64,000 nucleotides of DNA from Gyrodactylus bullatarudis (Eukaryota; Platyhelminthes; Monogenea; Gyrodactylidea; Gyrodactylidae), in the NCBI GenBank assembly GCA_012064415.1, contig SSNU01000247.1, forward strand, positions 421,202 through 485,201. The letters run 5' to 3'. Below the pieces are notes generated by a model that saw only the letters and a list, made by a program, of their open reading frames with translations, had not been told where the DNA came from and made no database searches. Positions 32 to 24,600 of this stretch are shown piece after piece. A program made the position numbers and the translations under genes. Numbering within the stretch: the first letter of the stretch is position 1; each line of letters opens with the position of its first letter.

Positions 32-3000
32 AAAGACAAAAAAATCTAGGATTCTTGTCGACAAAAGTACCCATATTACCACGATCGCCAGTCTCAAATC
101 AAGAGCTGAGTAAGTCATACCCATGAATATTTTTGCTATGAATAATATTCACTTTTGAACATTTGACAATACCAGAAACCTATAGCCCTGGAGTAGTATG
201 TGCTAGATTACTCATTATTACTAATAAGTAGTTTACTCAAAGAAGCTATTTTAGTAATTAACCCTTTCGTGAGGTTCTCCCCTAGACAAGGCGATTATTC
301 AAAGTCGTATATTTTCAATCATTACGCAGGTCAAAGCAGTATCACCTGACATGGATGAATTAAGCCCAAGATTAGTGAAATTTGGTTTTCATCTACTTAT
401 TAGTATTAGATGGGAAATTCATAGAGAAAATTGACTTTCTTATATGGGATCAGAAAGAATCCCTATTGAATAGAATCTTATTTAGGATGGTTTCATATCA
501 GTTATTAGTTGAAAGATTTGTGTTAAGTTATTATTTCATTCTTTTAGACCAATTGACGTCCAAATAGATTTTACGGAAAAACCCCAATTGAAAGATCAAC
601 TCATGAAGGGAGACTATGGCTGTGTAATGCTCTCCTATCCAGATACTCATGGTAATTTGACCTCCGTAAAAGAGCTGGAGGAAATCTCAGAGATTTGCTC
701 AGAAAAAAAAATTCTTTTCTGTGTAATATCAGATTTGTTGGCCTTAACTAAGATCACTCCCCCAGGAGAATTTGGCGTTGATATTTGCTTTGGGTCAGCA
801 CAGCGCTTTGGAATTCCGGTTGGTTTTGGTGGGCCGGCAGCTGCTTTTCTTGCCGTTAAAAAAGATTTGTTACGTTTCATGCCAGGAAGAATTATCGGAG
901 TTAGCAAGTTGGTCCTTCTCTCTGGATTTTTGTTTTTTCTGATCTAAGAGTATTTTTCATTCATTTAGAGATAAAAACGGAAAATCAGCCCTGAGACTCA
1001 CCCTCCAGACAAGAGAACAGCATATCAAACGAGACAGGGCCAATAGCAACATATGTACATCTCAGGCCCTTTTGGCCAACATGTCGAGTTTCTACGCCAT
1101 CTATCATGGCCCAGATGGACTCAAGACTATTGCTGATAATATCAACAACAACGCACTCAGACTAGCGACAGCCATTGGCAAGAAGCATGAAGTAATTTTG
1201 TTTATTTATAACGTTTCAGATCCTGAACAAGGGTCCAATCTTTGATACCCTCCATATAAGACCAAGAGGATTAATTACTGAGGATATTCGCAAGATTGCT
1301 TTGGAGAAGAAAATTAACCTTCGTTATAACCTAGATGAATCGATCTGCATCTCGATTGATGAGACAGTTCGATCCAATGATCTTGACGACTTGGCCAGTA
1401 TTTTTGCTGTTGAAATCAACCATAATGAGGTAAGTTTATAATAATTTGCTGCAAGATTAATTTTATCTATTATGAGGAGTTTTCTGTCTTTTTATTTTTA
1501 ATTTTTCCCTTCTTTCTACTACAGAAGGAAATCGAATCAAGTTTAACCATCCCTGAGGAAATGATGAGAAAATCACAATTTCTCACTCAAAAGGTTTTCA
1601 ATACACTCCATGATGAAACCAGTATTGTCCGTTATATGAAGACACTGGAGAATAAGGATATATCACTTGTACATTCCGCCATTCCCCTTGGCTCATGTAC
1701 CATGAAGTTGAATGCTGCAGTTGAAATGATTGTGAGTTTTTTGTTTTGTGAATCTACTTTAAAGTAATTTCACGATAATAAAAAATAGCCTTGTTCATGG
1801 CCATCGATCAATTCAATTCATCCGTTTGTGCCAAGAGATCAAATTACTGGCTACTTGGAAATGATGTCAGAGTTGGAGAAATACCTTGAGGATATTACCG
1901 GCTATGATAAAGTTTGTTTAACACCAAATAGTGGAGCTCAAGGAGAGTATGCTGGCCTTCGTGCCATCAGCAAATATCAAGAAAGTATCGGACAAGCTCA
2001 ACGTAAGGTCTGCCTCATACCCCTCACTGCTCATGGAACTAACCCAGCTAGTGCTGTTCTCGCTGGATTCTCAGTTAAACCAGTTCGTACCACTACAATC
2101 GGTTCTGTTGATTTAGGTTAGTTATCCCCCCAGTGATTGGTTTTAAATATGATTTTATTGTTTTTTTAGGACACTTGAAAGATATTATTAAAGAATACAA
2201 GGACCAATTGGGTGCAATAATGATTACGTATCCCAGTACATCAGGTGTATTCGACAAAGATGTCAGAGAAATATGCGACATGATCCATGAGGCTGGTGGA
2301 CAAGTTTACATTGATGGAGCTAATATGAATGCCATGGTTGGTTTGTGTAAGCCAGGACTATTCAATGGAGATGTGTCACACTTGAACTTACACAAAACCT
2401 TTTGCATCCCCCATGGTGGTGGTGGGCCAGGGGTTGGACCAGTTTGTGTAAAGAAACATTTGGCGCCATTCCTTCCGAATAATGTTTTCTTCAATACTCT
2501 AGCAAGTGCTCAGCTCGATAAAATACCGAATAATCCTGATGAAAATTTAGCGGTTTGTAATACACCGTTTGGATCAGCCTCAATTACACCCATTCCATGG
2601 GCCTACATACGACTAATGGGTCCAGATGGACTCAAGAGAGCCTCCGAAATTGCAATTCTCTCAGCTAATTACATGATGAATAAATTGAAGAAGGATTATT
2701 CCATAAAATATAAGAACGACCAGGGCATGTGTGCTCATGAGTTTATTATTGACTTTTCAGAATTCAAAAAACACTGTTCAGTTGTAGATGTATCCAAACG
2801 GCTAATGGATTTCAGCTTCCACAGTCCTACCATGTCTTGGCCCTATCCCGATGGTCTGATGATTGAGCCAACAGAAAGTGAGAGCTACCAAGAATGTCTG
2901 AGACTGATTGAAGCCTTCCAGACTATCAGAGGGGAAATTGAGGAAGTTACCAAAGGTAAACTGGCGTATGATGAGAGTCCCTTAAGTAACGCTCCACATT

Positions 3001-3203
3001 CCATGGATGACATTATAGTTGACAATTGGTCGAGAAAGTATACAAGGGAAACAGCGAGTAGACCGGGTAGCTGGCAAAAGAAGGACTATATCGGCAAGAC
3101 AGTCCAAAAGGTTTGGCCAACAACATCGAGGATCGATGATAGCTTCGGGGATCGTAATGTGGTCTGTGCCTGTCCACCCTTCACCGAGGATGAACAGGAC
3201 TGA
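32..3203 (+). CDS. GLDC: Glycine dehydrogenase (decarboxylating), P-protein, 3' part
   Basis: The gene enters from the left edge, so the N-terminus is missing. Exons read: 32-109, 548-907, 969-1191, 1220-1429, 1525-1731, 1789-2116, 2170-3203 (TGA 3201-3203). All junctions are GT..AG and phases agree. The product is the PLP-dependent P-protein of the mitochondrial glycine cleavage system, which decarboxylates glycine and passes the aminomethyl group to H-protein lipoate. Recognised directly: [30 protein letters not shown] ([13 protein letters not shown]), [21 protein letters not shown], and [19 protein letters not shown]. In the last motif, the Lys at 2394-2396 is the expected Schiff-base lysine. 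The C-terminus ends in a CACPPF motif typical of the family. The fourth intron (1192-1219) is only 28 nt. The first visible intron (110-547) holds a MITE. No frameshift or lost key residue was seen. Confidence 0.97.
258..520 (+). mobile_element. TTAA-flanked MITE, copy A (3'-truncated)
   Basis: Starts TTAACCCTTTCGTGAGG and then follows copies B (23581-23942) and C (37729-38030): TTTTCATCTACTTATTAGTA, AGATGGGAAATTC, GAAAATTGACTTT. The right terminus with the AAAGGGTTAA end is missing. It sits inside GLDC intron 110-547 and accounts for most of that intron. Confidence 0.75.
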
Positions 3204-4284
3204 TATGAGAGAAAGAAATGTTTTAATGCAATTTTACCATGTAATTAATTCTATTTTGATATTTATCATTATTATTATCATCACTCATCTTGATGATGAT
3301 TTGATTCGCCTTGAGATTCCCTATCTAATGCCCTCTCGTCCATCTGGAGAGAATGTTGAGCTTTCTTATCGCCCTTAAAAAAAGAATTAAGAATCCTAAA
3401 ATTTGAGAATTATTTCAAGATTAATCAGAATTTATAGTAATAAGATGCAATATGTATTTTTTAAAATAATAAATAAATCGTAATATAGATCTGTACAAAG
3501 TTGGAAAACGAATGCGCGTCTGAGGCAGAAAGTAAAATAAAGTCTTTGTTTGTATAGGTAAAAAGGTTGAGTTTGGATGAATGAATTGCTTCTTTCATGT
3601 ATTAATATGTATACATTTTGTATTCCATAGGTCATATGTTTATATATATAGATAGATGAATAGATGGGAATTTTCGATCATTTCTTTAGTTTGTATCGAC
3701 AAGTTTACCGGTTTCAGGAGTCAGATTGAGAGAAAGAATGAATGAACAATGACAAAAAGGGAGGGTTATCTTCTTCTTCTTTTCATGAGATCTTATGTAC
3801 AAGTTGAATGATTTTTTCTTACAATTTAAAAAACACACTGTATGGAGTAGTTGTGCAGTTTCCAATGATAATGGATACCAAAGTCGTATGATAGAAATGT
3901 TTTCTTCTGTTGTTATTATTATCAATACAGTAATAAAAATGCAATTCGATAATTTGGGTTTAATTATAAAAAATAAATATAACTAAACAGGGGTAGAGAG
4001 AGATGGCTTGTGGATGGATGAAAGGGTGACTGTTGTTATTTTATTGGTTATCAAGAGCTTCTTCTCGTCTAATCTCTGATTCTTTTTGTTATCTACACTG
4101 TAGATTCTACAGTTAATTTAGAGGGAAGAGAGGCCCAAAAAGGCTAAAAAGATTATAATAATGTTAGCTAATTATTATTATATGTAAATATGTAGTTATA
4201 ATATCACAAATCCACATGTGTATCTGTGTCAGTCTTTACTTTCGGTTGTACTGCCTTCTCTTACATGGTTGCTGCTGGCTCATG
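3204..4284. other. Convergent intergenic region / 3' UTRs
   Basis: This stretch lies between the GLDC stop (+) and the proposed upSET stop (-), so both genes end here tail to tail. Overlapping AATAAA hexamers at 3468-3477 are plausible GLDC poly(A) signals, and others occur nearby. The rest is simple AT-rich sequence. I see no coding potential that looks real on either strand. Confidence 0.6.
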
Positions 4285-7200
4285 TTAACTATTTAGTTCA
4301 CTATCTGGGAAAAGGGATTAAGATGAAAATGTAATTGTTATGCATGGGATTATAATCCCTAATTAGGGGATCAAGACTCACCTTGACTAGTGCCATTTTC
4401 ATTCACCCTCATGGGATGTGGAGGCTGTCTTGAGGATGTGGAAGATAATTTGATTTTGACGTCAGGATTATTCGTGTAGGAAGAGATGTAGGAGGATGCC
4501 TTTGGATTGTGAGTGTTTACATGACCATCTGAGGTGATCAGGTCCTCTAGACTAGATTCTTTGGTACAATCAATATTGGCATTATCAGCATTATCAACAT
4601 TGGGATCAGTAGTAGTGGTCAATTGATAATTGGTATTAATAGAAATGGAATTAGTAGTAGTAGTAGTGGAGGAGGAATTCTTGTTGTTATTGGTACAATC
4701 AATTAGTGGACTGGTAAACAAAAGGGGAGGTGGTGGTGGTGGTACAACACTTTCTCCAACTTTCTCAAACTTGCAATCGATATTGATCTATAGAGTGAAA
4801 ATAATAATAATCACAATGAAATATTAATATTATGCAAAGTCTAGACTCACCATATTCTTGGAGATGTGGAAACGCTCACGAATCTCATTCGGTAACTTTT
4901 CCTTTTGAGCCCTATTGAGCAATTCAGATAATTTCTCTTCAATGTTCTTATTCTGGTCAAGATCAAAATCCAAGTTGATCGATTCATCCAAACAATCGAG
5001 ACCTGGTTGTCTTTTCTGGACATCTTTGTCAATGACCTCAGAAGGTATCTCTTTCTTCTCCTGACAGTTGTCTGGAATGCCCTTCCTTCTCCTGTACTCT
5101 GATAGACTCATCTTGACCTTTTTACCAATGTCAGGCTTTTGTTCTTCTTTCTTGACTGGTTCAACTGTAGCAGGAGAGTCCTCTTTCTTACCACATTCTA
5201 CTGGTGATAGAGTCTGATTAGCTAGATCATTCTCGGCTAATCTTTGATCGAGAGTATTTGTGAGCAACTCTAGATCAGACATGTCTGCATCGACCTTTCG
5301 AGGCTTTTTAATTGGTTTGAAATCTTCAACTTCACTGCTACTGGATGTTTTCAATACTTGGGGATAGTCCTCATCTTCCTTTTTAACGTTCTGGCCTTCT
5401 GGTTCTGATGAGATTATCCTCTTCTTTATTGGATGTTTCACAGGATTTGGAATAGAAGAAGAGGCTTGAGATGAATCAGTTTCTGATTTATTCGTCTGCA
5501 TCAATATTTCACTAGCAGTCATGGAGAGGGCCAGCAGTTTATCCAATGGATTTATAGCAGTATCAGCAGGATTCAAAGAGTTCTCTTTGGTTTCTTCAAA
5601 ACAGGTTTCTTCTAGTCGAGCCTGAGTAAGCCACCTTTTCTTTGTGTGCTGGACTTCATTCAGTGTCGAGATTGATTGATGGGAACTAGTGTTGTTATTC
5701 ATGTTACAGAGTTCATCATTGGCAATGAGAGCCATGGTGACAAGAGAGTTGGTCACGTGAGCATTATTGTACAGGGTTGAAGAACGTGATCGACTAAACT
5801 TTGCCATTGGGTCCTTCTCCTGGACTTTGTAGACAATCAAATTGCAATCATTCGAGTCAATTGTTGTCTGGTCAATGAATGATGATTGGTCTGGAGGTGA
5901 GAAGCAGATTGATTCGTTCTTCGATAAGGTATCTAGTGATTTACAATCTTGATTTTGACTCTTGTTATTGTGTCCACTATTCTTACGACGTCGATCTTTC
6001 TTTTCCATTCGTTCAATACGACGCATTACTTCGTCCATCCATTTGTCTTCGCGGCTCTTCTCGGGTGTCTGGTTTTTCTTGCGCTGATTTAACACCATTT
6101 TTTCATTCGATTCATTTGAAGAGTTCAACTTTGATTGGTTTGATTGACGCTTGGATTTACGCTTTTCATTTGAGTCACGTCGTTTTGCTATCTGCAAGGA
6201 AAAAGAAGGTATTTGAATAGGCTATGTAAATGGGGATTTACAATTTTATTAAAACAAAATGCATACCTCTCTTTTCTGTTTGTCTTCTTCCTCTTCAGAG
6301 TATCTCAGATCCTCTGGGCCTAGATAATATAATCGATAGATAATTCAATTCTCTAGAAATGTAGCTTATTGTTGATTTAAAAAAATACTTTTGCGTTGTT
6401 GGCTGATAAAATTTTATAAGAAAATCAAAAGAGACTCACTTTTTTTTATGCGAGGACTAATGATACTATTATTGTTTTGACTCAAGTAAATTGAATCTTC
6501 CCCATGATTGTAATCAGGATCATAGAGATTTTCATCTTCTCTTTTGATGAAAATTTTTTCTTCGTCTATTCCACTACTGCTGCTGGAATTATCAAAGTTG
6601 TAGTGTATTCGAGAGAGGGAAGAGCGTGACCTAGTTGATGAGGTACGCCCGCAAATGGCATGAATTCTAGATCTTTTAAGAGGTGGCCGACCAATGAGAC
6701 CAGAACTTCGTCTGCCTAGATGCTTTTCACTGTTCTTTTCCGCGGAATTCCTGCGTGATGCAGCAATAGTTAGAGTGGCATTCGCTTTTCTAATAAGGGA
6801 ATTCCGAATAGAGAATTTTTTCTTTCCTTTGGGAACATTTTTAAGAGTACTCGAAGCTAGATTCAGGAGTTTTCTAAAATTAAAAATATTCAAAAAGTGG
6901 GTCATTTCAAGGCTTGAGATGAAAACTTACGAGGCTCCCCTCGATTTTCTAAGGGAACTCTTAAGACGACCAGTTGATTTACGACCTCTAGTCTTAGAGG
7001 TAGATCCAGAGAGCTTCCTTCCAGGTTTTTTCCTGATTTAAAATAAATTGATTTTTGTGATTTGATTATGTGGAAAGATTGAATAAACAGAAAATGTACA
7101 TACTTTATAACTAGGCTGTTTTGTATTTGATTCGAATTAAGCTCTTCAGTATCACTGAAGCATTCTTTGAAAGTGTTGACTTCATCAGCACATTGCTCTT

Positions 7201-9509
7201 CGCCCAATGGTATTGTTGACTTTCCGAGGACCTTACAATTAGGTCGGTCACAGGCACACTTGACACTATAGCGACAAAGACTCGGATCAAAGTCAAAAGG
7301 TATTGTGAGCTCTGTTTTGGAAGGAATTGGTTTCATCGAAAATAAGAGGAATTTGAGGATTAATTCTCCCGTCTCGATATCCTGGTAGAGAATGTGTTTG
7401 ATCTATAGAACAAGAAAAAGATTTTTATACAAGTTTTGATAATTGTTGAAAGCTTATTGGAATGCTTACTTCGCAATTTGGAGAGCATGAGCGACGCAAG
7501 AAACGAGCGGAATTTCCTGATTCTCGTGAATCAATCAAGAGGGATGTTTTATGGAATTTATTGTAGAAAAAGACATATGGCTCATAGCTAAATATGAGTA
7601 ATATGATAACAGGGTTGGAAAAAAATAGTTGAACAGTTGAACGTACTGCTTTCTAAAATCATAGAATTCCGTATATTCTTGTGCGAGACGAATGATTCCT
7701 TTTATTTCAATTATTGGCTCATGAGATTCAATAAACTTGCTTGAGCTTATGCTCTAAAAAAGGAAGGAAAGATATTTATTAATAATATTATTTAATAGAT
7801 TTATTAATACATTTCAATAAAAATTCATGATAAAAACATACTTTTTGGTTAAATTCTTGCATAATAACTTGGTAAGCAGGAGGGCTATTCAATTTGATAA
7901 GACTCTGAAGGAATAAATTACGCTGGCTTGGATGAATAAGATTAAAATAATGCTGAATAAGAGGCTGATTTGTTTTGGTCCTTGAAGAGAAATGCTTTGT
8001 CAGACGTTCTGATAATAAGGAATGAGGCAGATGTTCAAAATTATCCTCGCATAAGCCCAGAACGGAAGGATTTACTGAAGGTGGTACATTCTCATCCGTA
8101 GTAAATCGAGTGTTATCATTTTCATTTGAATCTTTTAGTTCTGACTTTGACTTGAAAGCTGTAAAAATGTGGATATTCTCAGAAATGTTCTTCTCATGGT
8201 TGTAGTTTCAAAAAGTTAAAAATTAAAGCCAATACTTACTAGTGTAAATAAAATCTTGTTTTCGCTTGGACTTGAAAACAGAGCTGAGATTCTGATTCAA
8301 GGAGGCTTGAGAGGAAGAATTCGACAGACCATTTAAAGAGATAAATTCTGGATAGACAATGCTAGCACCTTGACCAACATTTGAGATATTTATAGGTTGG
8401 AAGTTTTGAGTCTTTTGCTGCAATTCGTTCGTTGTACCAGATTGAGTTTGAGCTTGAGATTTACTTAATGCTGGCGTTGTACTTATTCTCAACTGCACTG
8501 GAGAGGCCTTATTCGTTGAGGTTGTTACAAATAAACGACTTGGTAAAAATGTCCCAGCATTAGTTCGATAACGAAGAGCCCCACCAGTAACATTATTTAA
8601 TAGAGATGCTGTTGTACCACCAGAATTAATGAAAGCGAGTTTTTCACGTTGAAGACATACCGCTTCGGCGTAGCGCATTTGACGTGGCTGACAAATATCA
8701 CAAAAGTAGGGCTTTGGTACAAAGCCATCATTATTTGGCGAAACACAGTCGATATGCTGATGCATCCTAAAACATTCAAAAATCAATGCGAGAGAAAAAT
8801 TCATTTAGAACATGTTATCTTTAGAGAGAAATAAAATATAAATGTGAAAATCAAAACTCACATGCATTTATCACACTTAACCAAGAGACCATCATCATGA
8901 GTGTAGCCACAAATGCATCGAATGAAATCATTCTTTAAAAGGTTGGCTGGAGAATTCAAGGACAACTGTGGTTTCATAAATATTCCATTTTTCTGACGAG
9001 AAAATAACGAGGCCTTGTTAGGAGCGAGTAGGATTGCTTTATTACCGATCTGTAAATTTTTAATTCTAGCTTCATTGTTAAACTTCAGTTGAGGAAATCT
9101 ATCTGAATTTTCTGTGGTTTTCTTGGGAGACAAATCATTTTTTTGATCATGCTTAGCAAGAGCAAGCTTTGCCAGCAATGATAGTTGATTGGAATTTTTA
9201 TCAGCATTTGATTTAGATGCTTTCTCCGGATTACTAGCATAATTATGATCCTTTATACGAAATAAAATTATTAAAAATCAAGAAATTACGTTATACGGCA
9301 GGCCAAATAAAGAGCCTCCTTCTCCATACGAAATTGCCTCAAATGGATAATCGTCAGGATCGCTAAAATATTAATTTGAGAATTTACCTTTTATCTGGAT
9401 CTGTCATAATCATGGGTTGTCGGCCATCTTTCAACTGTAATTCTAAACCATTCTCGTTAAAGGTGATATTTCTTCCAATTTCTATATTATCTGTGTCAAA
9501 CGCCTTCAT
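4285..9509 (-). CDS. upSET/KMT2E/SETD5-type PHD finger and SET-domain chromatin protein
   Basis: A 14-exon minus-strand gene of 1435 codons. Exons (high to low): 9388-9509, 9290-9362, 8862-9250, 8240-8766, 7842-8158, 7647-7753, 7470-7587, 7104-7402, 6931-7032, 6440-6873, 6267-6319, 4851-6191, 4382-4787, 4285-4304. All are GT..AG and phase-consistent. The PHD finger (about residues 173-222) reads IRCICGYTHDDGLLVKCDKC, then HQHIDC and YFCDICQPR, the signature of the KMT2E(MLL5)/SETD5/upSET family. The SET region (about 470-620) includes ARFLRRSCSPNCE and a CRYSVKCACDRPNC tail. It has RRSC where active SET enzymes have NHSC, as in other family members thought catalytically weak or inactive. The long C-terminus is Ser/Lys/Asn-rich with a PPPPPP run. 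The last coding exon (7 codons) is tentative: reading on from the 4382 donor also gives a stop three codons later. Introns 1 and 2 are 25 and 39 nt. Likely a nuclear chromatin regulator recruiting histone deacetylase, by family analogy. Confidence 0.87.
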
Positions 9510-10011
9510 TCTAAGCTTTCAGGATTGAATTAACACTGTTATAGCTACCTTAAAAGGAAGAGATATATAATAAAATCGAAATATTTGGCTTAAAATAGAG
9601 AAAAATGGCATAAAAAATACTCAAATGGGTGGACATAATTATTAAAATAATATTCTGATTGATTAAGCAACTCACAATCGTTCTAAGTGTGATTTATATA
9701 ACTTTTTCCATATCCAAAACAAAGAGAACTAAGCATTTGTAAATGGTACACTAATTATGGATCTTTATACGATAAACAACTTTTTTCAAGAAAATTCTAT
9801 AGAACAAATTCTTAATTTTTTCTTATTTAATTTCACAATTTTCTTGAATCTTGAAAAAAAATATATTTTTTAAAACTTAAAAGTATCTTTTATGGATTAA
9901 GAAAAAAAATCAATCATAATTCTTATGAGATTACCATTATAATTTATTTATTTGTTTTAACTTATCTTAAATTTTGAGGAAGTTTGAACTGTTGAATATT
10001 GTACACAGAGG
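9510..10011. promoter_or_regulatory. Divergent 5' region between upSET (-) and EDC3 (+)
   Basis: About 500 bp separate the upSET ATG (9509) from the EDC3 ATG (10012), and the two genes point away from each other. The sequence is very AT-rich with poly-T/poly-A tracts. The EDC3 ATG is preceded by GTACACAGAGG, which could be a splice (or trans-splice) acceptor in the 5' UTR. No TATA box or known factor site can be assigned with confidence. Confidence 0.45.
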
Positions 10012-11704
10012 ATGCCTAAAGATCATTACATTGGGCTTAGAGTTGAAATATCATCCAAAGCTTTCGGTGTTATAGAAGGAACTGTAGCTGATCTTGATGA
10101 ATCTAGGATTCAATTGAAGAATGCAATACTCAATTCAAGAACAGAGCACGCTGTGTTCACTTTGCTGTTAGTTTTTTAATTTAATTTCGTAGTAATTCCC
10201 AAATAGATGATATACGAATTCTTGAAATATCAAAACCATCCTTTCAAAAGAATAAGGAAATTATCAAAAATATTCCATACGCCAATAATGTTTATTTGAG
10301 TGATGAAACTCCTCCTAAAATTGTTAGAACAGAAATCACCGGACTTTTCAATGGGCCTAAAGTCAATCGAAAAGTCAGACCAAAGAATACTTCACGTAAA
10401 TTTAATAAACTTTAACAACAATTATAAATTTAGATTCAGAATTATACCAATCTACTGATTTTTCTGGTGCTGATAGCGATAATCTTTTGAATAAATCCAA
10501 GCAATCTATTGGTAGAAGAAATCTCAACAAAAACGTTAAGAATAGCTCCAAACCAAAAAATCAACGTAGAAATCGTGTTGATTGGGACGAAATTGAAGTG
10601 GATGATTTCAAATTTCAAGAGTTTGATTTTGAAGAGAACTTGGCCAGATTTGATAAGAAAGCTTATTATTCTCATATTGATGCCCTAGATGCTCCCAAAG
10701 ATTTTAGTCATTCCTCCAGTGAGGAAAAAAATGTTCCAAAAGAAATTTATTCAAAGCAAGATCTCTCTTTACTAGATCATTTATCAAAAATATCTCTGAA
10801 AAAATTAGAAACTATATCCTCCAAAAAGCTTTACTCCGACTTTGTGTCGGAAAAGAAATTTTGTTCTCTTGCCACAAGGAATAGACTCATTCACTACATT
10901 GCCACAGGTGTAGATCCAGCTAGAATTGTTGACCATCTTCCTTTCCCAGGATTCCTATGGGCACGGCTCATTGAATCATTATCCTGTGTTATCTGTGATC
11001 ATTTCTGGAGGATAATTAATATTTCCCCGGACTATTATCCCACAGTTGCTTTGGTTTATCGGGAAAATAATCTTGGCACTAGTATTTGCCTGAATCTCGT
11101 CAGAAAGTTGGTCTCAAAGGGCGCTTGTGTATATATTATTGCTCTTCACTCCCTAGAACCATATCCAACCTTGGATAAATCTAACAAGCTGTCTGTATCT
11201 TGCCAGGATGAAATTAACTACATTTTCAATGGAATATCTCAACTGAATGCCATTGGTTCTATTCAAATCATTGATGATCAGATTAAACTAAAAGAGCTCG
11301 ATGAATTGGAACGCATTGATGCTGTCATCTTTGGGCAAGGCCTGAACTTGGAAGAGAAATCATTGGATTCTCTTCATGACCAGAGTATTGACAAGAAAAA
11401 GACCGACATTGACTACATTTCCTTCAACAGTTGGCTTTTGGGCAATCTCCCTAAAGTGATGAAATTGGTACATGTTGCAAATCCCTATTACCATAAGAAT
11501 ATCGTTGACCTTGAAAGAAAGAATATTCTCTACGAGTTGATTTCCCCTGTCAACCGGAAGAACTTGGAGCCAAAATTCAATGGATCAGTTTATCTTGCCC
11601 GTTTCCTTGGTGCTGAGAACGTACTTAATGCATTTCTTAAACATGAACTCATCGATAGTTCCATGAGTCAGTCTTCGTGTTTAGCTGTTTATGCCCATCA
11701 TTGA
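10012..11704 (+). CDS. EDC3: Enhancer of mRNA decapping 3 (LSm-FDF-YjeF_N)
   Basis: Three exons: 10012-10166, 10193-10395, 10434-11704 (542 codons; human EDC3 is 508). The N-terminal LSm domain (about residues 1-70) begins HYIGLRVEISSKAFGVIEG and closes with DDIRILEIS, matching the divergent EDC3 LSm fold that docks on DCP2. An FDF box follows at about 165-195 (WDEIEVDDFKFQEFDFEENL, then ARFDK), the segment that binds the DDX6 helicase. A C-terminal YjeF_N domain (about 250-525) contains GVDPARIVDHLPFPGF and PTVALVYRENNLGTS. Expected role: P-body scaffold that promotes decapping. Introns are 26 nt (10167-10192, GTTAGT..CGTAG) and 38 nt. With the 26-nt intron the LSm alignment is continuous. 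An alternative donor at 10155 would give a 38-nt intron and remove four residues. Confidence 0.9.
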
Positions 11705-12552: not shown

Positions 12553-12985
12553 GAGATGAGATGCTTATTTTGACAATATATTTTATTTATATAATAGTTA
12601 TTTCGTCTTTGTGGTACATAAAAAATATTCTAAAACGACATAACCACAGATTCTTATGTAATGGTTTTGCTTGCCTTGACAAGGTCATGTCCAACCAAGA
12701 ACATGAAAATATCCAAAGGTAGAGAGGTATTCCAAAGAGGCATTAGTTACATTTCACACTTGAGTTTGATATTTGTCAGTTGGTGAATGAAAATATAGAA
12801 AATTGGCTTCTATAAATGCATTATTCAGAGAATATACATATAAAATTACATGATGAATATTATACACGGGTTTCAATTGAAATTGTTTGTAAAGGAAACA
12901 GGGCTATGGGAATAATAATTGTATAAAATTGTGATTTACATTACTATGGAAAGTCTGATAAGACATGGAAATTCTATGATAAGAA
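12553..12985. other. Convergent 3' region of the four-helix gene and PPP4C
   Basis: 433 bp between two converging stop codons. AT-rich; it presumably contains both 3' UTRs. No additional gene, repeat or structure recognised. Confidence 0.5.
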
Positions 12986-13909
12986 TTAAAGGAAGTATTC
13001 TGGCACTGGTTTACGCTGAGACATGGCTCTTACATCTTCTGAGGCGGGATCAAACATGATAAAATTAGGTTTGAGGTTATCACTTAGCTCCAATATAGCT
13101 GCAACATTTCCACATCGATAACAATAATTGGGTGCAGACCAAACTGTCAGCACGCTTTCTTTAAAATGATATCGATAGCCTTCCATGACAAGCTGATGGG
13201 CCCGACAAATCATGTCTAGTTTATTGGTGTAATTAAAGTTGGCTACAACATTGGCCCCAAATAAAAAGCCAGCCCCACGAGGACTCACAGCAAAACCACT
13301 GACATCATCCGGATCTGACCAAAGTAAATCGCACATTGGACCATCATGAGGAACTTCTTGCTTACGATCTATAGAACGGATTTGATCGAGGGTATTAATT
13401 TTTGGCGAAAGACCACCATGAACACAAAATATCCTGTCATTGATTATAGCTGATAGGCAGAGGTAATCAAAAATTTCAGTGCATTGTTTCCATACCATTG
13501 CAGAACCATACTTTCGCATGCATTCCTCATAAAAACCATAAACAGTGGTAATCTGTCTACTTTCATGGTTGCCTCTTATTAGAGTTATTCTGTCTGGATA
13601 TCTCACTTTCAATGCGAGTAACAATAGGAATGTTTCCACACTATAATAACCACGATCTACAAAATCTCCAAGGAATAAATAGTTTGTATGAGGCACATCG
13701 CCACCTTTCTTAAATAATTCCAATAAATCATAAAATTGTCCATGTATGTCTCCACAAACAGTGACAGGGGAATCTATGAACTGAACATTACTCTCTTCTA
13801 TTAAAATTTCTCTAGCCTTGGCGCAAAGAGCTCTAACCTCTTTTTCTGGAATAATTTTGCATTCTTTGAGAGTCTGTATCTGTTTATCCAAGTCATTTAA
13901 ACTGGACAT
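12986..13909 (-). CDS. PPP4C: Serine/threonine protein phosphatase 4 catalytic subunit
   Basis: An uninterrupted 307-codon ORF, exactly the usual PP4C length, starting at the ATG complementary to 13907-13909. All PPP-family metal and phosphate motifs are present: GDIHGQ (residues 53-58), GDFVDRG (81-87), GNHE (113-116) and HGG (164-166). The C-terminus ends YFL, the tail that is carboxymethylated and binds scaffold subunits in PP2A-type enzymes. [20 protein letters not shown] and [18 protein letters not shown] place it in the PP2A/PP4/PP6 group. Close similarity over the N-terminus ([10 protein letters not shown]) and the tail favours PP4. It dephosphorylates nuclear and centrosomal substrates in complexes with R2/R3 subunits. 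The gene is intronless in its coding region, unlike its neighbours. It diverges from Caprin. Confidence 0.98.
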
Positions 13910-14024
13910 TTTTACAATATGATTGAATTAACCTCCGACTAGATTACGAATTAAACAAAACCTTAGATCATATATTTAAAATAACTCGATTACATGCCCG
14001 CCATTTAAAGTTAAACCGATAGAT
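13910..14024. promoter_or_regulatory. Compact bidirectional promoter, PPP4C / Caprin
   Basis: Only 115 bp separate the two divergent start codons, so both promoters and both 5' UTRs must overlap here. The minus strand of 13997-14006 reads AAATGGCGGG, which resembles the YY1/Pho core (ATGGCG) often near transcription starts. That assignment is by eye. Confidence 0.55.
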
Positions 14025-17000
14025 ATGGCCTCTATTAGTCTTTATACAGATACTCAGATAAAATTCCTCAGAGATATAATAACGCTCTTAGATAAACGGA
14101 AGCGGAATTTAGAAAAGAGAAAAGTAAATAAATTAATTTATTTCAGCATAAACTCGATGAATACAAAATCAAGGAAAACCTTAACGAAGATCAAAAATTG
14201 GCGTTATCCAAGGCTGATGAAGTTTGTGCTTCAGTTGAACTAATTGATGAACTCAGTAAAGTCATCGGTAAAATAGTGGAGGATGCCATGAAAGAAGCTG
14301 AGGACTTTGTCAAAAACATTCAGACAATCCTCAAGGATAACAAACTTTCCCTATTGACAAAATCTCTAGAAATGCTCGAAATTCTCAATGTTCTCGATGT
14401 TTACACCAGTGATAATCAAATTCAAGATGATGAACTTAGAGATTACTACACCCTGTTCAAAAGATACTTGTGTCGCAGCTCCAATAATTCTGTCAAATGT
14501 ATAAAAATACTCTCCCAGAATCTTCTAAATATCAATGAAAATAACTTTGACAAATTATTGCCGATTAATCCGAAAGTTTGCCAGGATATGAAACCAAATC
14601 GTATAAAAGAACTTGTCGAGAATATTGATTCCATTGATTCACAAAATAAATTACGCAAAGTTAAAGACCTTCATAGAGTCGAAACGTCTGAAAACCAAAG
14701 CAACAGTAACCAACAACACAAACAACAAATCCAAAAGTCAAAGGAAGAGAAAAGTTTCAATTTCCTCCATAATTCTGTTGTGCCTGATGATCAATTACAG
14801 ACAAAACAGCGTATTAACAGAATTAATCCTAAGCAAACTTGCGGCGATGACAATGACTTGAATTCTGATAATCCAGGAAGAAAAAAGATGCCTACCTCTA
14901 AATTTCCTATTCCTCTCATGGAATTATCACCCACGACCACGTTATCTGTGGAAAATTCTCAAGTTCTTGCCGAGTGCACTTCAGAGAATAAGGAACGAAT
15001 TGATCCTGTTGGTGATACATGGAACTCTCAAAAGAATTTTCGCAATGGAGCTACGATAAAGAAAAATCTTAACGGTCACAAGCAGAACGGATCCATGAAA
15101 GATGCCAAGAAGATGGATCTTTTGAATGAGAATGTCGGCTCGTTGTGTGAGAGTCTCTCAAACTTTACCTGTGATTCAATTAACGGATTCTCAGATCTCA
15201 CCAATGGCAATGAACCTTCTAAATTATTCGACCTCCTTATGAAATTCAACAATGGCTCCAATAATCTCAATCATAAGTCTAATAACAGTCAAAATGGAAA
15301 CTGGCAGAATGGACAATCAAAGTTGACACCTGGCAACAATGTGGTCGGCATGAAATTGATTAATGGCGACAAGAAAAGGTGAGTTCATTTCCATCTGTTA
15401 CCCATTTATTATCTATATTAAATATGTATTTTTTCTTGAGATCAAATCTTGAAAATCTGATCTATTCTAAATATTGATAATTCATTTTCTGCAACTAAAT
15501 TCAGGGTCAAACATTTGTGTGTCCTTTTTCTATAAAAAAAATTCAAATTCGATACACTTGTTTTCTCTCGATCTACTTTGTTTTAAATTCAGGTTCAAAT
15601 TCTTCTTCCTTTAAAATCAATTATTTGACAGTATGTATCTACAGTTCAACTCGAAACTATTAGCCAATCGGCTGATAATCTCACTCATTTGTAATCTCTT
15701 TCTTTTCTTCAGAATATCTATTTACTTTTCTTTGAGTCTATTTAAGTTGGTGATTTTCTTATAAAACCTTTCAACTCTTTTCAACATTTTTGCCTATCCC
15801 TCTAGTCTTGCAAATGCGCTCGACTTTAGAAATGCTCAATTTTGTTTGATGTTCCATTGTTTAATTAGAAACTGGCGAAACAGTTTAACTCTTCCTGTCC
15901 AAAATTAATATTTTTCTTCACAACAATTAGATTATTTGTAACCTTACCAAAATAGTTACGCTGATTCAGAATCTGATATTGTTATTGTTAAGCCCTGCAT
16001 TAGATGCACGACAGAAACTACCAATAAAAAAAGGTAAAAAAAAGTTGCAATTAGATCTCCCATGTGCTAGAGACATCATGTCAAATTTCTCAAAGCCTAT
16101 GTATAAAATTTTTAATTTAAAATTAATTTAATCTAGCTCATCCATGGGTAAACCAAGCAGCATGAACATCAATCAAACTACTACTTCGAACAATAATACT
16201 GCAGTGAAAAATTTCCACTTAAACAATGAAAATGGCGACCAATCATCTGATAAAGACCTCCATTCATTGTCCCTCCAAAATAACAATCAATATCATCTCC
16301 CATTAAACAATAACAACGGATACTTTCATCATTCTCAGGCACCAGCTGCCTCACTAATTGAAGTTCCACCAATCTCTTGGCATTCATCAAATCCCATCCG
16401 ACCACCCGTTACCACCCCTGTTGGCCAGAATCAAATGTTATTCAACAACAATCATTCTCTTAACAATGGCAACAATAATATTTCTATCGATAGTCAAAAT
16501 AATAATCTTTCATCAATGCCTATCCCGACATCTAACAAGGGAACATCTGGTTATCCACCCAACCTTTTCTCATCTCTTCATGAAAACCTCGCTAAACCGA
16601 AAATGTATCAACATCCTTTTCAATCATTCAGTGAGTATTGGCTAAATTATATTCTCCTCTTCTTTTAATTAATTATACACGTTATATTTACTAGCCATAT
16701 ATCTGTAGCTTTCAACATAAATTTTTTCCTGTCTCACTTTGAGCTGACTGCTTCAACTGTTTTCTTTAGACCTTTTTTGAACAATAAGAGAATCCATTAT
16801 CAGCTCATATTTTAACTAGTAACTGTATCTATAATTATAAGTAATCAAACTAAATTGGTTTATCAATCAGAATGGATCAACTACTGTCTTTTCTTTTATG
16901 ATATAATAAATATCAAGCCAGTGTAAATATTTGAAGAGAGATCTGATGAAGTTTTACTATCTCGAGATGAGCCAGGAAAAAACTAATGTTGGGTAAAATA

Positions 17001-20000
17001 CGAGTAAAATAAGAACGGGGTCTCCCTACATTGCAAAGCTTACATGATATGACGTCATAGGTAAGAAAAAACGGTGGTCAAATTAAAAATAGAACGTAAA
17101 AAGTATTTCGCTCATTAATGGAAAAAGGTTTAGAAGCAAGATCACAGTGATATTAGCCAAAATATAAATTATTATTATTTTATTATGAAGTTCAAGCCTT
17201 ATTTGGCGCTTCAGAATACGCGAGATTCTAAAAATATTTTTGAAAATTAATGCTTGTACTTATGAGTAAAACAGGTATTTCGATCGATTATAATTATAAT
17301 TTTTCGAATAATACATTTTCTATGAAGTTTAGGATAGGAAGAACTTTATCAGCTTATCCACAACATCTTGATTGGTTTGGTTAAAATTTTTTTTAATGCT
17401 GATTCATCAAGCAAAAATGACTATCATCATAATACAGTTAACCTCTTAAATACGCACATTTCAATGAAAGCATTTCATACCAATCAGATTGCATGTAAAA
17501 TGCCTTTCCAAGAAACTGTTTACAATTTCCAAGCATCAAATGATAGAGAATTCAAATTGAAACATGATTCTCAAATTGAATATACAAATTAAGAGAGAAA
17601 ATGGTTTTCTTACTCTTTTAATCTATAGTCTCTCTGTAGTAATTTAATATCAGTTTAATTTTCTTGTAATTTTATCCTTGCTTTTACTTCACTTTTTACT
17701 CAAACGATTCTGTCTCTTCATCTTTGATATTGAATCAAGACTAGAATTCGTCTTTTGTTTCATACTCCTAAAGATGCTTAGGAATGAGAGATTGTCTACA
17801 AAATATCTATAATATTATTGATTGATTAATTAATCAAAATTGCCATGATGTTGATGCTTGTGATCACGAAAAGAAGACTATCCAGGGATTGTTTTATCAA
17901 GGATATGGTTACTCTTTCGCTCTCTCTATTTCTAGTGTATTTTATGTCTTGTCCTGCCAGAAGTAAGCTTCTATTTGTATCTCAACAAGGTGAGATAAAT
18001 ATCTCATAAGTCTTCAAATTAGGCTATTGAACCAAGAAGCAGGTCCTCTCTTTTGGTTTGTATGGCCCTTGTATAGGAAAATTATCTCATTTCCAAACAG
18101 TAGTTTCTTTCTTGATCAAGTTCAATTTAGCCGACTTCAGTTACCAAAAATATTCATTGCATATTTTCTACAGCTACAGAACAGGCATCGTATTATATGT
18201 TCATTTGAAATACACGTCAACATCGGAAAATTTTATACAAACAGTTACAAAAGGTCACGAATACACTTTGATAAGCACCCAAAAAAATGTTGACCTGTAA
18301 TTGCTGAAACATTATGGGGATATGTGAATTTTCTTCGACCAAAAAAATACCTACCACTACTCGGTTCTTCAGATTGAATCATGAATCATAATAAGAGCTG
18401 CCGAAATTCGAGGGACAAAAGGCAAAATGTTTCCATAAAATCTTTTGAGCTAGCGTTTGAGTAAAAATCGAAAATTATGGACATGTCTCTCATCTACAAG
18501 TTAATTCGTTTCTATATTTAACTAAAGCTTTCCTCAAACCCCAGAAGCATCAATAACTCCACATTCTCAATGAGATTCAAAATTAAGAAATGATCATGGG
18601 ATTAGTTCTGTAGAATCAAGTAGGCGTAGGTGCTTTTTGCTTACTGAAATTTGAAAAATATTCATCTGATTTTCTAATAAATTACCCAGTGTGAGGATTA
18701 GAAGACAAGTGAAAATGTTATCATAAACATTCTATTTCACCGGCTTGATATTTATACCTTATAACAAGAAAGATTTGAAATCCTCTGATTGGTTCAAAAC
18801 TATAGTGGGGTTCCGGTCTCTTCGTATCCTCTCAAGAAGTTTTCCTAGTTAAATAATATTGTTGAGTTTGAGACTGGAAAAGTTCTTACAGTATGTTGAA
18901 AGTTCTTTGTAGAAATAACGTCAGGGAAAGGATATTTTGACATATTACGATTCTGTTTCAGTAAATATTTTATTTATTCAAACTCTTGAAGGAAACTTTA
19001 TACTGAAACAGAAATTAATTTATAATTTTGATTCAAAAAAATTATTAACCATAATTAACTATACTCTCATGTTTGCTCAAGTTAATATTATGAGTTATGA
19101 GAAGCCTTGTAGTTTTGTTGCATTTTGATATTTTCTCTTGAAGGTAAATTCACCTTTTTTGTCACCTCAATTTATCTTTCTGGTGATACTAATTAAGACT
19201 TGTATAAGCTAAAAAATATCAGCAGATCATTTATTTTCTTTCTTTAATCACAGATGGCAATCTGAACAAGACTAATAGTACAAAGTTAATGTCTAACACC
19301 AGCAATAACTCATCTTTGGCACAATCACTCACTCTCGATGATTTGATGAATCCAGTCAGCTCAAAGAGCAACAACACCACCATCATCCCATCTACACCTG
19401 CGTCATCTCATCAGAATCAAAATGCCTCATCCATCACCCCAACCAGCAATCACCAAAGCAACATAAACTCAAATGGTGGCACTACCAATGTTAGTTCTGC
19501 CTTCCTCAATAATCTCTCGCTTAAACAAAAGACAATGCATCGTCTCGCAAGTAACACCACCACCAATTCCACTACAACCAACAATAATACTTCCACAGTA
19601 AACAGTTCATCCAACATGCAGACAAAGAGTAATTCTGCATCGAACAACTCTACAAATCCTGACTCCTCAAAGGTTAGTAAAATCACTCTTGCTTGCTCTA
19701 CTCAATTTTGACGTTTTTTTGATTTCACCAAGGCTTCTATGGGAAATCTGGGCCAAGATTTTTTTTTTAATTTTTATTCTCTACTTGACCGAGTTAAAAT
19801 CAATAACCCATGAATGTTTACAGTCATCCTCTAGCCCCTTTGTCTCAAACGATCAGTTTTTTATCGATTTGATATGACAATACTTAATGCACTCAATCCG
19901 CGCCAGCATTTTTCAATGGAATTTTTACTTTTATTTATAGAATTCAAGAGAAATTGGGATCTATGAATTTTTTTCATTTAAAATAGACTTATTAAATTAG

Positions 20001-20573
20001 TCTTCCAAGAGAATATATGAGATAAATAAAAGATTTTACTTAGATTTACTTTCAAGTATGATGATGAATTTTTTTTGATATTTTTTTTCTTCAAAGTTAA
20101 ATTTCATGAAACGATAAAATGCTCTAATTAAACCTTACCACACCAGAGATTTAATTTACGAGTATATTTTATCATATTATACCACTGCCAGTAAGGCGAA
20201 GAACTTCCTGATTTTAATACAAAAATATGGTCTAGATTTCTAATGATTCATCTAAAGATAAGGTTATTTAGCTATAGTTTTAAACAATCTGATGATATCA
20301 CTTAAACTCTGACTATTCAATGTACTTGTTTGTCTAGAAAATGTCCGAAGCATCTGGTCTAAAGGATCTCTACTCCAGCTATAACAAATATCTAATCGAG
20401 TAAGTCTCGACAGCCTTAATAGAATCATCCACGAGTCTAATAATGACTCTTTGTTCTCCTTCAACCTTTCCAGGAAAAATGTCTACTCAATGGATCCTAG
20501 CCAGACGATGGATGAACTGGAGAAAATGAACATTGCCAATTCGATCAATCAAAATCTTTATGATGTTAACTGA
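14025..20573 (+). CDS. Caprin-like RNA-granule protein
   Basis: Six exons: 14025-14123, 14147-15378, 16137-16630, 19254-19672, 20338-20399, 20474-20573 (801 codons), phases consistent. The first ~180 residues match the Caprin helical homology region: an RNLEKRK basic segment, then KLDEYKIKENLNEDQKLALS and SKADEVCASVELIDELSKVI. The rest is a long Asn/Ser/Gln/Thr-rich tail with little order, as expected for a stress-granule or RNP scaffold. Caprins bind G3BP and FMRP and regulate translation of bound mRNAs. No RGG box is evident, which differs from vertebrate Caprin-1. Intron 1 is only 23 nt (14124-14146); introns 2-4 are 758, 2623 and 665 nt. The last two exons (KMSEASGLKDLYSSYNKYLI and the MDELEKMNIANSINQNLYDV end) join in phase, but membership of this gene is inferred from phase and splice sites alone. 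Confidence 0.83.
16631..19253. other. Large intron of the Caprin-like gene
   Basis: 2.6 kb of AT-rich intron. A short ORF at 17368-17592 and others here have the composition of random AT-rich sequence, and I could not link them in phase to flanking exons. No repeat family from elsewhere in the window was recognised. Confidence 0.5.
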
Positions 20574-21278
20574 AACCTGATGATGATTAGAATTATTATC
20601 CCGCGAAAAAAATAACCAAAAATACAATTCCCATCTTGCATAGCAGCCCTCTCGTCCAAAAAACAAATTCTCTTGTCCGTCTAGCATTCTCATACTTTGA
20701 TGGCATTATCACACAATCTTACATTATATATATTTATTGAACTGATAAATCCCTGTTTTGATTCCCACCCCTTCCCCCTCTCTCACATACACACACAAAG
20801 ACACCACTTCCACAATGGTAATTATACGAATAAATGAAAAATAAAAATAGTTCAATAATGACTCGTTGAACAGGAACGTCATTAATTTCAATATACAAAT
20901 AATGCTTTAATTCATAAAAAAAATTCATGAATCCCATCCTTGTTTTTGTCAAAAATTTACTCGCAATTCCCAAAAAACATAAAAAATCTCAATTTATTAC
21001 AAAGACAAAATTTTAAATTTACTAATTTGCTCGTCCATTTGTTAATAATAATACTAATATTAATAATTTGAAAAATTACGCTAACGCATTATTAATCAAC
21101 TCTGATTATTACTAGAGCTCTCCTTCTACAGAGTCTGTAGTAGTCTGTACTACAGACCCCTACAAACTTTGTATCACAAAGCAGCACATGGACCGAAGAT
21201 AGTAAATGAACAAGAATTAATTCCTGAGATGCTTTATTTCTATTGAGGTTTGAGCTATTTCTATGACAATTGAGCTAG
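20574..21278. other. Caprin 3' UTR / intergenic
   Basis: AT-rich trailing sequence after the Caprin stop. A short perfect hairpin, GTCTGTAG (21133-21140) pairing with CTACAGAC (21150-21157), sits in it. No coding signal. Confidence 0.5.
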
Positions 21279-21629
21279 TCACCATCTAGTACTTATTCTA
21301 CTAGCACTGCACTTCTTCGTCAGGGGAGCTTCAACAAAACTCTGTTTTTTCTCAATCAGATAATTTTCTCTGATATGTTCCTTTCGCCTGTTAAAAGAGG
21401 AAGTCGACTTAAATGTGAGAGCTTTCTTTCCTTGCTTCAAATTATTTCTCTTTCTTATTTCATTTTCTCTTAGCCATTCTCTCTGATAGTAGTTTGATAA
21501 TAGAGCAAACATGTTATTTCCAACATTTTTATTTTCCTCATTTCTTTCTCGATTAAAGTTCTCTTTAACCATCTTTAGGACAGTAGACATGTTTAAGAAT
21601 GATTGTTTACTTAATTGAAATGGCACCAA
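21279..21629 (-). CDS. Small basic hypothetical protein, uncertain
   Basis: A 116-codon minus-strand ORF, strongly charged (many Lys/Arg/Glu/Asn) and predicted helical, with segments such as NYYQREWLRENEIRKRNN and RRKEHIRENYLIEKKQSF. An internal Met would give a start at about residue 14 (MSTVLKMVKENF). I recognise no domain. In favour: it is longer and more polar than random ORFs in such AT-rich DNA, and it sits head to head with the ARB2A gene. Against: no homologue is known to me, and its start overlaps the region that must encode the ARB2A 5' UTR. Confidence 0.35.
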   Translation of the reverse strand: MVPFQLSKQSFLNMSTVLKMVKENFNRERNEENKNVGNNMFALLSNYYQREWLRENEIRKRNNLKQGKKALTFKSTSSFNRRKEHIRENYLIEKKQSFVEAPLTKKCSASRISTRW

Positions 21630-21694
21630 TTAAAGAAAATGTAAGTTGATTATATACTTTTTTAATTAACTTTTTTTTTAAATCCAATAGTTTT

Positions 21695-24600
21695 ATGGAA
21701 ATAAGTAAACATGTACAAGTCAAATCTAGTACCGATTCAGATAATAAAAATAAGGCAGTAGAGACTGAAAAGCAAAACGTTACATTCACAGATGAAGAAA
21801 AGAATCCTGATCTTATGAAAGAGGTTTTGGCATGTCCTAATAGATGTCGCTCATTTTTGAACAAATTTTGCACCAAGAATATTCCACAGAAACTTTTATC
21901 TTTAAAAATTGAACAAAAGGTTGTTCGCGTAAGTTCTTAAACCTTATTACTAGATTCCTGGACATCCGTATTTAAACATAGTCATATATCACTCGAAAAA
22001 TATATTCGAATTTCGAGGCCCAATTCTTATGCTTATTCAGTCCGGAAGCATCTCTCCAGTTGGCATTTGGTCTCCTAAGTTGATCATTCATCCCAAGCAT
22101 GGTGTTGTTACAGGTTCTCAGACTAGCCTAATCGAAAAGGCGCACAATCTTGGATTTGGAATCATCCTCATCAATACCAACGAAATATTTTATTCAAAAA
22201 GTGAAATCGATCCAATCAGTCTAGTCAATTTGGAATTAAAAACTCATTTTAATGAATCTGATGTCTCATTGAAAAGACCTGCATATATGGAAATATCTGA
22301 AATTCTTGCCAAAAAACGTTTTGTACCTAATGTAACATTGAATAAACGAAGACCAAATGATCAAGATATCCTTGCATCTTACTCATTATCACCCCCACCA
22401 AGAAATTCAATAAGGATGAAGTTGAACAGCTTCCGTCGCCATCACCAGAATGCTGAGAAAATACCTGAATCATTTGTTAGCTATATTTAATTTTTACAAA
22501 TAATTTAAATTTATTTCTCTCTCTTTTTTTCAGTATGTTAGTAATGAAGAAATCATTCATGGCACTCTTTTGTACTTATTTGGCAAATTAATATCTAAAA
22601 AACTCTTTATATGGGCTCATCAGCTATCAAGTTTTGCTATTTTTTATCCCTTAAAATCGCCTCCGACACAATCGAATACGTCCTTAAATAATAAAATGTA
22701 AGTTTCTAAACTATTCAAAATTCTGTTTCATTTATTGATTCTGTTTTTCAAGTAAAAACCACAGACCACTAACCAATCTAGAGTTCCGTGCAAGACCCTT
22801 TACAAAGTCCACGCCAAATGCTCAGAGTAATTTTTTCTTCTACTCCTTCAAACGTGAATAATAAAAGGATTTTTTTGAAATTTTAGATCCAAGAAGACGT
22901 CACTATTCGGCTGCCGATGCAGATAAAAAGCTTCTTTTTCTCACCCGACCACAGTCACCAAGTAAGCCTTGAGCAATTCACATACAATTGCGTTTGTGAT
23001 TTTTTTTTAAATTTGTAACCTGCATTCATAATCAAGATACATTTATTGAAAACACCAAATGTACATTGACTAGAACGTTGTTCGCTTGCTACCTTACTAT
23101 GTTGTCTTCTGGCTTGTATTGGTCTATCTGTAGAAAAAGAAAGGGGAGAGAAAGGTGTAGTATTTCTTAAAGAATAAGGATTATAAAAATTATAGTGATT
23201 GTTATAGTAATCAGAATTATTAGAGTAATAACTCTGATAATATAATTCATCACTTGAAAGAAAATTAAAATTAAGATTAGAATAAAAAAAATAGTTAGGA
23301 CTCACACAATATTTCGAACACATGTCGTATTCTTCTTCTGGCGTGAGATTTTTCAAAAAACTTAAAACCTTGAGTGTCCAATCAAAACATTAAACCAATC
23401 AGATTTCTTCTCAACTTTTATCAACTTGGTTCAAAGTTATAACTAAATGTACATTTCTTTAAGGTTCATCAGTGGTGTCATTTGAATAAGGTGATAAGGT
23501 TAATTGAAAATAATTATTTTAAATTAAATTTTCAAGGGATTAGTAACAAAATGAGAAATGGTTAATATGAAAATAATCAATTAACCCTTTCATGAGGTTC
23601 GCCATATATAGGGCGATTTTTCAAAGTTGAAAATTCTCAGTTATTACGCAGACCCAAAAAATGTCACATAATCTATTTAATAATTTACGTTAAACAAATC
23701 TCGAAAATACCGAAAAATCTCCAAGACATATCTAAACTTGGATAAAATAACTAAATTTAGTTAAAATTGGTTTTCATCTACTCATTAGTAAATGGGAAAT
23801 TCAATAGAAAATTGACTTTTTTAGATGTGATCAAAAGAATTCTTATTGAATAGAAATCTCATAAGAATCTCATTTGAAATCGTTCTATATCAATTCTGAG
23901 TCTTTTTCTCGATCGGTTTTCTTATCGTCTCGAAAGGGTTAATAAATAAAGACTCTCAATGAATCTGACTGGTAATTACTAACTAATAGGGCCTGAAATA
24001 ATAATACGTTATAAAAATTTCTTTAGATCTTACGATTTTCAGAAATATGATTTTATCGTTTTAGATCTTATTTTCAAGACTTTATTCTCAATAAATATAT
24101 TTATCAAAAATAATCAGAAATTCAATAAATCAAAACTCTTCTCGGTTCTTAAATTGAACTAGAGAGTTATTAATGCGATTGCACGTCTTGGCTAAATGAG
24201 ATATTTGATTTCCCACGCCACATATAAAATTGAAAAAATAATACATTATAAGATGTTATAACTCTGGACCCTAGAGGGTCCAAAGGAAAATCTGAATAGC
24301 CTAATTTAATTATCAGAGCCGAGAAAAGCTCTGGTTAAAATATGATTTTTAAGACTTTTTGAGGCCCTTCTAATTACCAATTTTACATATGATGTCTGGA
24401 GAAATTTTTGACCAATTAGCTTTGAGACCTCATTGTCTAATAAAGAATAAGCAGTTTTACGCCTCATTCTCAATATTTTAATAACCTTTAGTAATTAATC
24501 TAACCAATCTACCTCAACAGATATCCCAAATGGAGACGAATCAAAGACTTCCTCTCATGTGAATGATCCTAAAAATTTATCTGGCTTTTGGAGTTCCGAG

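Follow-up and report, generated by a model that had tools for sequence, protein, structure and literature searches.

The stretch considered here is a window of 64,000 nucleotides (nt) from the genome of Gyrodactylus bullatarudis (G000:C467:421202-485201), in which five genes, GLDC, upSET (KMT2E/SETD5-like), EDC3, Caprin and ARB2A, each contain a segment of 23 to 28 nt that begins with GT and ends with AG. Judged from the surrounding sequence, they are, with high probability, genuine introns of very small size. Introns of this kind are already known, since short-intron classes in parasitic flatworms have been reported both in PMC5036155, which includes a monogenean, and in PMC6530080. According to the former, tapeworms have two short-intron peaks, at ~36 and ~73 base pairs (bp), and the same feature is observed in Gyrodactylus salaris; S. 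mansoni and Schmidtea have one short-intron peak. In Opisthorchis felineus, 34% of introns are under 75 bp and the length peaks fall at 37 and 90 bp; its microintrons are described as having splice sites nearer the consensus and often no polypyrimidine tract, and microintrons are said to occur in other flatworms too, with Hahn et al. 2014 cited for Monogenea (PMC6530080). No length for a monogenean's lower peak was found in the literature surveyed, Hahn et al. 2014 lying outside that survey.

Dicyemids also have introns of about this size. The mean is reported as 26.2 nt in Dicyema (PMC2222250), the median as 27 bp in Dicyema sp., with about two thirds of introns under 30 bp (PMC6543705), and the mean as 38 bp in D. 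japonicum (PMC6736024). For the human spliceosome, the minimum distance from the 5′ splice site to the branch site is put at ~50 nt; on one substrate no assembly takes place at 35 nt, and Smu1 and RED are essential for activation when this distance is sufficiently short (PMC6692369). SPF45 can substitute for U2AF on truncated tracts (PMC8363638). An earlier note on this DNA had remarked that the segments look like spliced introns, that they are smaller than the shortest introns usual in animals and that those of dicyemids and some flatworm genes are nearly as small; PMC2222250, PMC6543705 and PMC5036155 bear these remarks out.

The present genome resembles tapeworms and G. salaris (PMC5036155) in being that of a parasitic flatworm with two short classes, a gap between them and A/T-rich introns. 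Unlike the tapeworm peaks at ~36 and ~73 bp, the classes here span 23–38 nt (median 28) and 50–80 nt (median 63) among 134 predicted introns, and the lower one seems, on a small sample, to be some 8 nt shorter than its counterpart in tapeworms and flukes. As in the flatworm O. felineus (PMC6530080), a short peak well under 50 bp accompanies long introns. Unlike the microintrons of that fluke, the tiny introns show no sign of donors nearer the consensus (GTAAGT in 2 of 18, against 11 of 50 introns of 50–100 nt), and their bodies are richer in T (0.55 in 19 tiny introns versus 0.45 in 49 short ones). The likeness to dicyemids is one of length, ~26–27 nt; the differences are that only about 1 in 8 introns here falls at 23–38 nt and that the lineage is Monogenea.

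Five short segments of the window

Our preferred explanation, to which we give a probability of roughly 0.93, is that these are ordinary U2-type spliceosomal introns of a monogenean genome and belong with the smallest of the short introns that parasitic flatworms have. We favor the U2-type reading because of the GT..AG ends, donors that match U1, the proteins restored by removal, the two size classes, and the presence of U1, U2, U2AF65, SF1 and RED genes. The predicted introns, including two of 38 and 39 nt, are as follows.

1192 to 1219, plus strand: GLDC, 28 nt, phase 0; given by all 5 reference proteins in spliced alignment, homology leaving the exact ends unfixed
9363 to 9387, minus strand: upSET, 25 nt; 15 of 30 references (long alignment), 16 of 24 (N-terminal alignment); missed by the gene hidden Markov model (HMM)
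9251 to 9289, minus strand: upSET, 39 nt; 20 of 30 references (long), 21 of 24 (N-terminal); missed by the gene HMM
10167 to 10192, plus strand: EDC3, 26 nt; frame, splice signals, gene HMM
10396 to 10433, plus strand: EDC3, 38 nt; gene HMM, position read from the sequence
14124 to 14146, plus strand: Caprin, 23 nt; Caprin-2 PDB alignment continuous across the junction, gene HMM
21929 to 21953, plus strand: ARB2A, 25 nt; frame, GTAAGT donor, in-frame stop at the acceptor

The earlier note had given the coordinates, lengths (28, 25, 26, 23 and 25 nt) and GT..AG ends of the five segments, and all agree with the letters of the window. None of these lengths is divisible by 3. The 39-nt upSET and 38-nt EDC3 introns that it had added are likewise present. 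Excising each of the five restores the reading frame, and retention produces a stop or a frameshift in every case, as had been claimed, with in-frame stops on read-through within four of the five. The further claim, that protein context forces splicing, holds by homology for GLDC, upSET and Caprin; at the EDC3 and ARB2A junctions it does not, and the evidence there is the frame and the splice signals.

Homology was assessed with our own splice-aware protein-to-DNA aligner, which requires GT..AG, has no length preference and admits introns down to 15 nt. In a register test, the alignments were rerun with all 256 pairs of end dinucleotides, and the rank of GT..AG was recorded. What homology demands is that some segment of roughly this length be excised; the exact ends are taken from the splice consensus. 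Removal restores conserved protein not only in GLDC, upSET and Caprin, but also in V-ATPase H, NOB1, ASCC3 and LARS2, which are described below.

The long upSET alignment used 30 of 34 homologs, and the N-terminal alignment 24 of those. Here the 39-nt intron interrupts a motif, GLPYN/DHNYA, conserved across the rows of trematodes, cestodes and Cichlidogyrus, and GT..AG ranks first of the 256 pairs in four of four references. For the 25-nt intron the ranks are 2, 26, 1 and 5 in four references. An 18-nt intron at 9066–9083, proposed in the upSET alignment by one reference, is taken as an aligner artefact. In Caprin, the match to a solved Caprin-2 structure (E 0.0022) runs unbroken over the 23-nt junction; GT..AG ranks fifth, and the top four removals are each 23 nt long. 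The GLDC alignments, made with 5 of the 120 homologs listed, contain zero frameshifts with any of the five references.

The EDC3 LSm region gave no significant match in Pfam or PDB searches, and the sole match in this gene is a weak one to FDF, downstream and under the Pfam cut-off. In ARB2A, the in-frame stop ends in the acceptor AG, the donor is GTAAGT, and the single alternative AG within 21940–22010 (at 21981) breaks the frame. The Pfam Arb2 match, from residue 87 onward, starts 8 residues past the junction, and the homolog search returned 0 of 1114 candidates at E 0.001. The HMM favored a 112-nt intron at this place, which would excise part of the Arb2 match.

Intron size classes and further genes

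Intron lengths were surveyed with a gene HMM, also of our own making, whose intron-length cost is near-flat from 12–15 nt up and which was seeded with a few splice sites and retrained on the data. The sample was 314 kb, comprising the window, the adjoining 50 kb and 200 kb of another contig, and genes scoring at least 35 were kept. The first settings led to over-splicing or gene merging, and those results were set aside; one of the later runs did, however, start from parameters trained in the gene-merging run. The 134 predicted introns comprise 3 at 12–22 nt, 17 at 23–38, 2 at 39–49, 49 at 50–80, 24 at 81–200 and 39 that are longer. Nine runs with other end dinucleotides served as decoys, with these counts:

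23–38 nt: 17 with real signals; decoys 4, 4, 8, 4, 2, 6, 1, 2, 5
39–49 nt: 2 with real signals; decoys 8, 4, 5, 4, 10, 10, 3, 3, 3
50–80 nt: 49 with real signals; decoys 9, 20, 21, 11, 16, 11, 13, 9, 5

There are thus two peaks below 100 nt with a gap at 39–49 nt, a pattern missing from the nine decoys. Run earlier on 264 kb, the HMM predicted 18, 2 and 44 introns in the same three intervals, against 1–7, 2–10 and 9–19 in eight decoys. The earlier note had regarded the tiny introns as exceptional; on these predicted lengths, they are a genome-wide class. Fluke microintrons gather in shared genes and toward the 5′ end; here, a test of position within genes gave a mean rank of 0.47 for tiny introns (n = 12) and 0.56 for the others (n = 104). 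Besides the two in upSET, the HMM failed to call the 28-nt GLDC and 25-nt ARB2A introns. Two of its calls are doubtful: one of 23 nt near 20400 in Caprin, which became 14 nt in a later run, and one of 18 nt in a channel-like gene.

Tiny introns recur in further genes with homology support. In V-ATPase H, a solved-structure alignment is unbroken over the junctions of 26- and 29-nt introns (GT..AG ranks 1 and 9 of 256). NOB1 has a 26-nt intron over which the solved-structure alignment is again unbroken and which Pfam PIN_6 spans without a net gap; GT..AG ranks 16, and the best four removals are all 26 nt. ASCC3, which is not a random draw because it was chosen for a helicase match running through a stop, has introns of 36, 30 and 36 nt. 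The solved-structure alignment is unbroken over the first two, for which two references give GT..AG ranks of 18 and 5 (36 nt) and 1 and 1 (30 nt), and likewise over the second 36-nt junction where the other helicase cassette is matched. In an ABC transporter, one Pfam match spans a 27-nt junction, and in LARS2 a solved-structure alignment is unbroken over a 30-nt intron. In LARS2 (L001–L020 joined, ~43771–46564) the HMM also places a 91-nt intron that seems overlong, the PDB alignment being short by 17 residues, and the true intron may, on this sequence, be near 40 nt. By contig, the homology-backed genes are GLDC, upSET and Caprin on the contig of the window (C467), V-ATPase H, NOB1, LARS2 and the ABC transporter on C98, and ASCC3 on C222.

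The sizes are mixed even within a single gene, the 28-nt intron of GLDC standing alongside others of 53–438 nt (all on the plus strand):

110 to 547: 438 nt; 5 of 5 references
908 to 968: 61 nt; 5 of 5 references
1430 to 1524: 95 nt with four references, 98 nt with the fifth
1732 to 1788: 57 nt; 5 of 5 references
2117 to 2169: 53 nt; 5 of 5 references

The 438-nt intron is the longest in the window confirmed by homology. Introns of 2–5 kb, which the earlier note had placed in the window, are not established: their sole source is an HMM run in which genes were fused, and the maximum in the later runs is 1559 nt.

Splice signals, spliceosome and host

The donors of the tiny introns (n = 18, two of them doubtful) include GTTAGT four times, GTAAAT three times, and GTAAGT, GTATGT and GTAGGT twice each, plus others. 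The genome contains two matches to the U1 small nuclear RNA, at G000:C9:19011-19163 and 19577-19728, on one strand and ~0.4 kb apart, and three to U2, in two of which the branch-pairing GTAGTA was read by eye. Also present in the genome are U2AF65 (E 8.6e-139), SF1-HH (E 1.1e-25) and RED_N (E 1.5e-64). The U1, U2 and U2AF components, to which the earlier note had pointed as worth examining, are recognizable, as are SF1 and RED.

It is tempting to consider how such introns would be handled. U1 and U2 would pair with both ends of a single intron, that is, by intron definition. Once ~6 nt are allowed for the donor and a few more for the stretch from branch site to AG, the adenosine of the branch should, in the smallest introns, be no farther than ~20 nt from the 5′ splice site, unlike the human minimum of ~50 nt. 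If so, both ends could be held together only after U1 has departed, or with early and B complexes of a different arrangement. In their short distance from 5′ splice site to branch, these introns would resemble the human ones that depend on Smu1/RED or SPF45, and RED is present here; RED may be the likeliest helper, and an SPF45 homolog could also act. The tiny size itself probably arose from deletion-biased shrinkage to the minimum length that this spliceosome tolerates.

The assembly totals 77.3 Mb in 471 contigs, and the G+C content of the window is 27–38% in 2-kb bins. Gyrodactylid assemblies are reported at 67–91 Mb, with 31–39% G+C and mean introns of 353–773 bp (PMC12677651). Among its matches, upSET is closest to Cichlidogyrus casuarinus (333 bits versus 293), and in a maximum-likelihood tree the window and Cichlidogyrus form one group with support of 100/99. 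This tree has 16 rows (the window, Cichlidogyrus, five cestodes, six trematodes and three outgroup sequences, with neither a dicyemid nor another monogenean), and the row of the window is long and 25% filled. Among the matches listed for GLDC, schistosomes come first (950 bits, versus 892 for the next group). By its sequence affinities, the genome is that of a monogenean flatworm.

Some other features of this DNA may be recorded. A single-exon open reading frame with a GIY-YIG match (25650–26393, minus strand, Pfam E 2.2e-5) is presumably similar to the endonuclease portion of Penelope-like retroelements. Just beyond the window, a Transposase_1 reading frame of 253 residues (L034:1673-2434, plus strand, E 5.1e-17) is one that we take to be of the mariner type. 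A phosphatase gene at 12986–13909 (minus strand, Metallophos E 6.9e-48), which we assume to be PP4-like, is predicted to be a single exon amid intron-rich genes. Two similar stretches starting AACCCTTTC.TGAGGTTC, apparently copies of a dispersed repeat, were seen by eye at ~260–300 and 23583–23625.

Weighing the alternatives

Several results weigh against the U2-type reading or weaken its support. In GLDC, GT..AG ranks 50, 63, 63, 6 and 79 of the 256 pairs with the five references; the ends there are unfixed by homology because the junction sits in a variable stretch and alternative removals score somewhat higher, namely of 25, 28 and 31 nt and, with one reference, also of 22 or 61 nt. The seeds of the HMM included splice sites of the present finding, which biases it toward similar introns, and at least one of its 17 tiny introns is false (30 nt, 2961–2990, minus strand, within a GLDC exon). 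In a branch-site scan, the mean score observed for tiny introns was reached by 19 of 300 shuffles, which is not significant, and that for introns of 50–80 nt by 286 of 300. Genome-wide, the pattern AGGTAAGT..TTTYAG for introns of ~17–47 nt has 70 matches (57 distinct), against 230 in a reversed control; with a longer gap there are 109 against 225, and another whole-genome pattern count gave 1328 against 5166, the reversed controls differing in base order. By length, the 57 distinct matches divide into 8 at 15–22 nt, 18 at 23–30, 19 at 31–38, 6 at 39–42 and 6 at 43–50, and the support from these counts is weak because the excess at 23–38 nt is only mild. Among the pattern matches, the 30-base string AGGTAAGTTTGAGAAGGGATTAATTTTTAG occurs at seven places on seven contigs and is probably a dispersed repeat mimicking an intron.

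If the segments were short insertions introduced by the assembly, breaking frames that are intact in the animal, homology might well leave the exact ends unfixed, as it often does here. However, the extra pieces recur in eight unrelated homology-backed genes on three contigs, in a narrow range of sizes, with GT..AG in or near register and without an equal excess for decoy signals, so that we consider assembly error very improbable. We give just as little credence to the idea that the segments are kept in the messenger RNA and passed by frameshifting, bypassing or editing: they carry the splice consensus at both ends, the signals resemble those of longer introns, and read-through meets stops in four of the five. 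A contig derived from a dicyemid, where most introns are this small, would account for the lengths (the Dicyema median is 27 bp, PMC6543705), and the 67.5-Mb genome reported for D. japonicum (PMC6736024) is in keeping with it. Nevertheless, the affinities of upSET with the monogenean Cichlidogyrus (in a tree with no dicyemid, and with the window row 25% filled) and of GLDC with schistosomes among the matches listed, together with the mere 17 of 134 predicted introns at 23–38 nt, leave this origin only the slightest chance.

A different proposal, compatible with the U2-type explanation, is that the tiny introns are more than ordinary introns that have shrunk and form a class maintained in its own right, with a distinct role in export, surveillance or translation-linked control. 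The gap at 39–49 nt and the T-richer bodies would fit such a class, and the authors of PMC6530080 propose a separate functional significance for fluke microintrons. Against it, clustering by gene is not significant: the tiny introns are spread over 9 genes, as few as in 504 of 5000 shuffles, and form 4 adjacent pairs, as many as in 336 of 5000. We regard a separate role as unlikely, yet less remote than the preceding three alternatives.

Returning to U2-type introns at the low end of the flatworm range, a more specific proposal can be offered tentatively, as possible rather than probable. On the sequence evidence, the lower class may have shrunk past the ~36 nt seen in tapeworms and flukes and reached dicyemid length (23–30 nt), with introns of 50–100 nt and longer persisting in the same genes. 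A recognizable animal spliceosome would then work at a distance of at most ~20 nt between 5′ splice site and branch, under half the human minimum, and so with an altered order or shape of assembly.

Such introns are underrepresented because of the default minimum lengths of annotation software, as PMC6530080 says of flukes, and this would distort gene models in genomes like the present one. One nucleus with introns of 23–38 nt, 50–80 nt and several hundred nt, sharing common signals, would allow the lower limit of the animal spliceosome to be studied within a single species.

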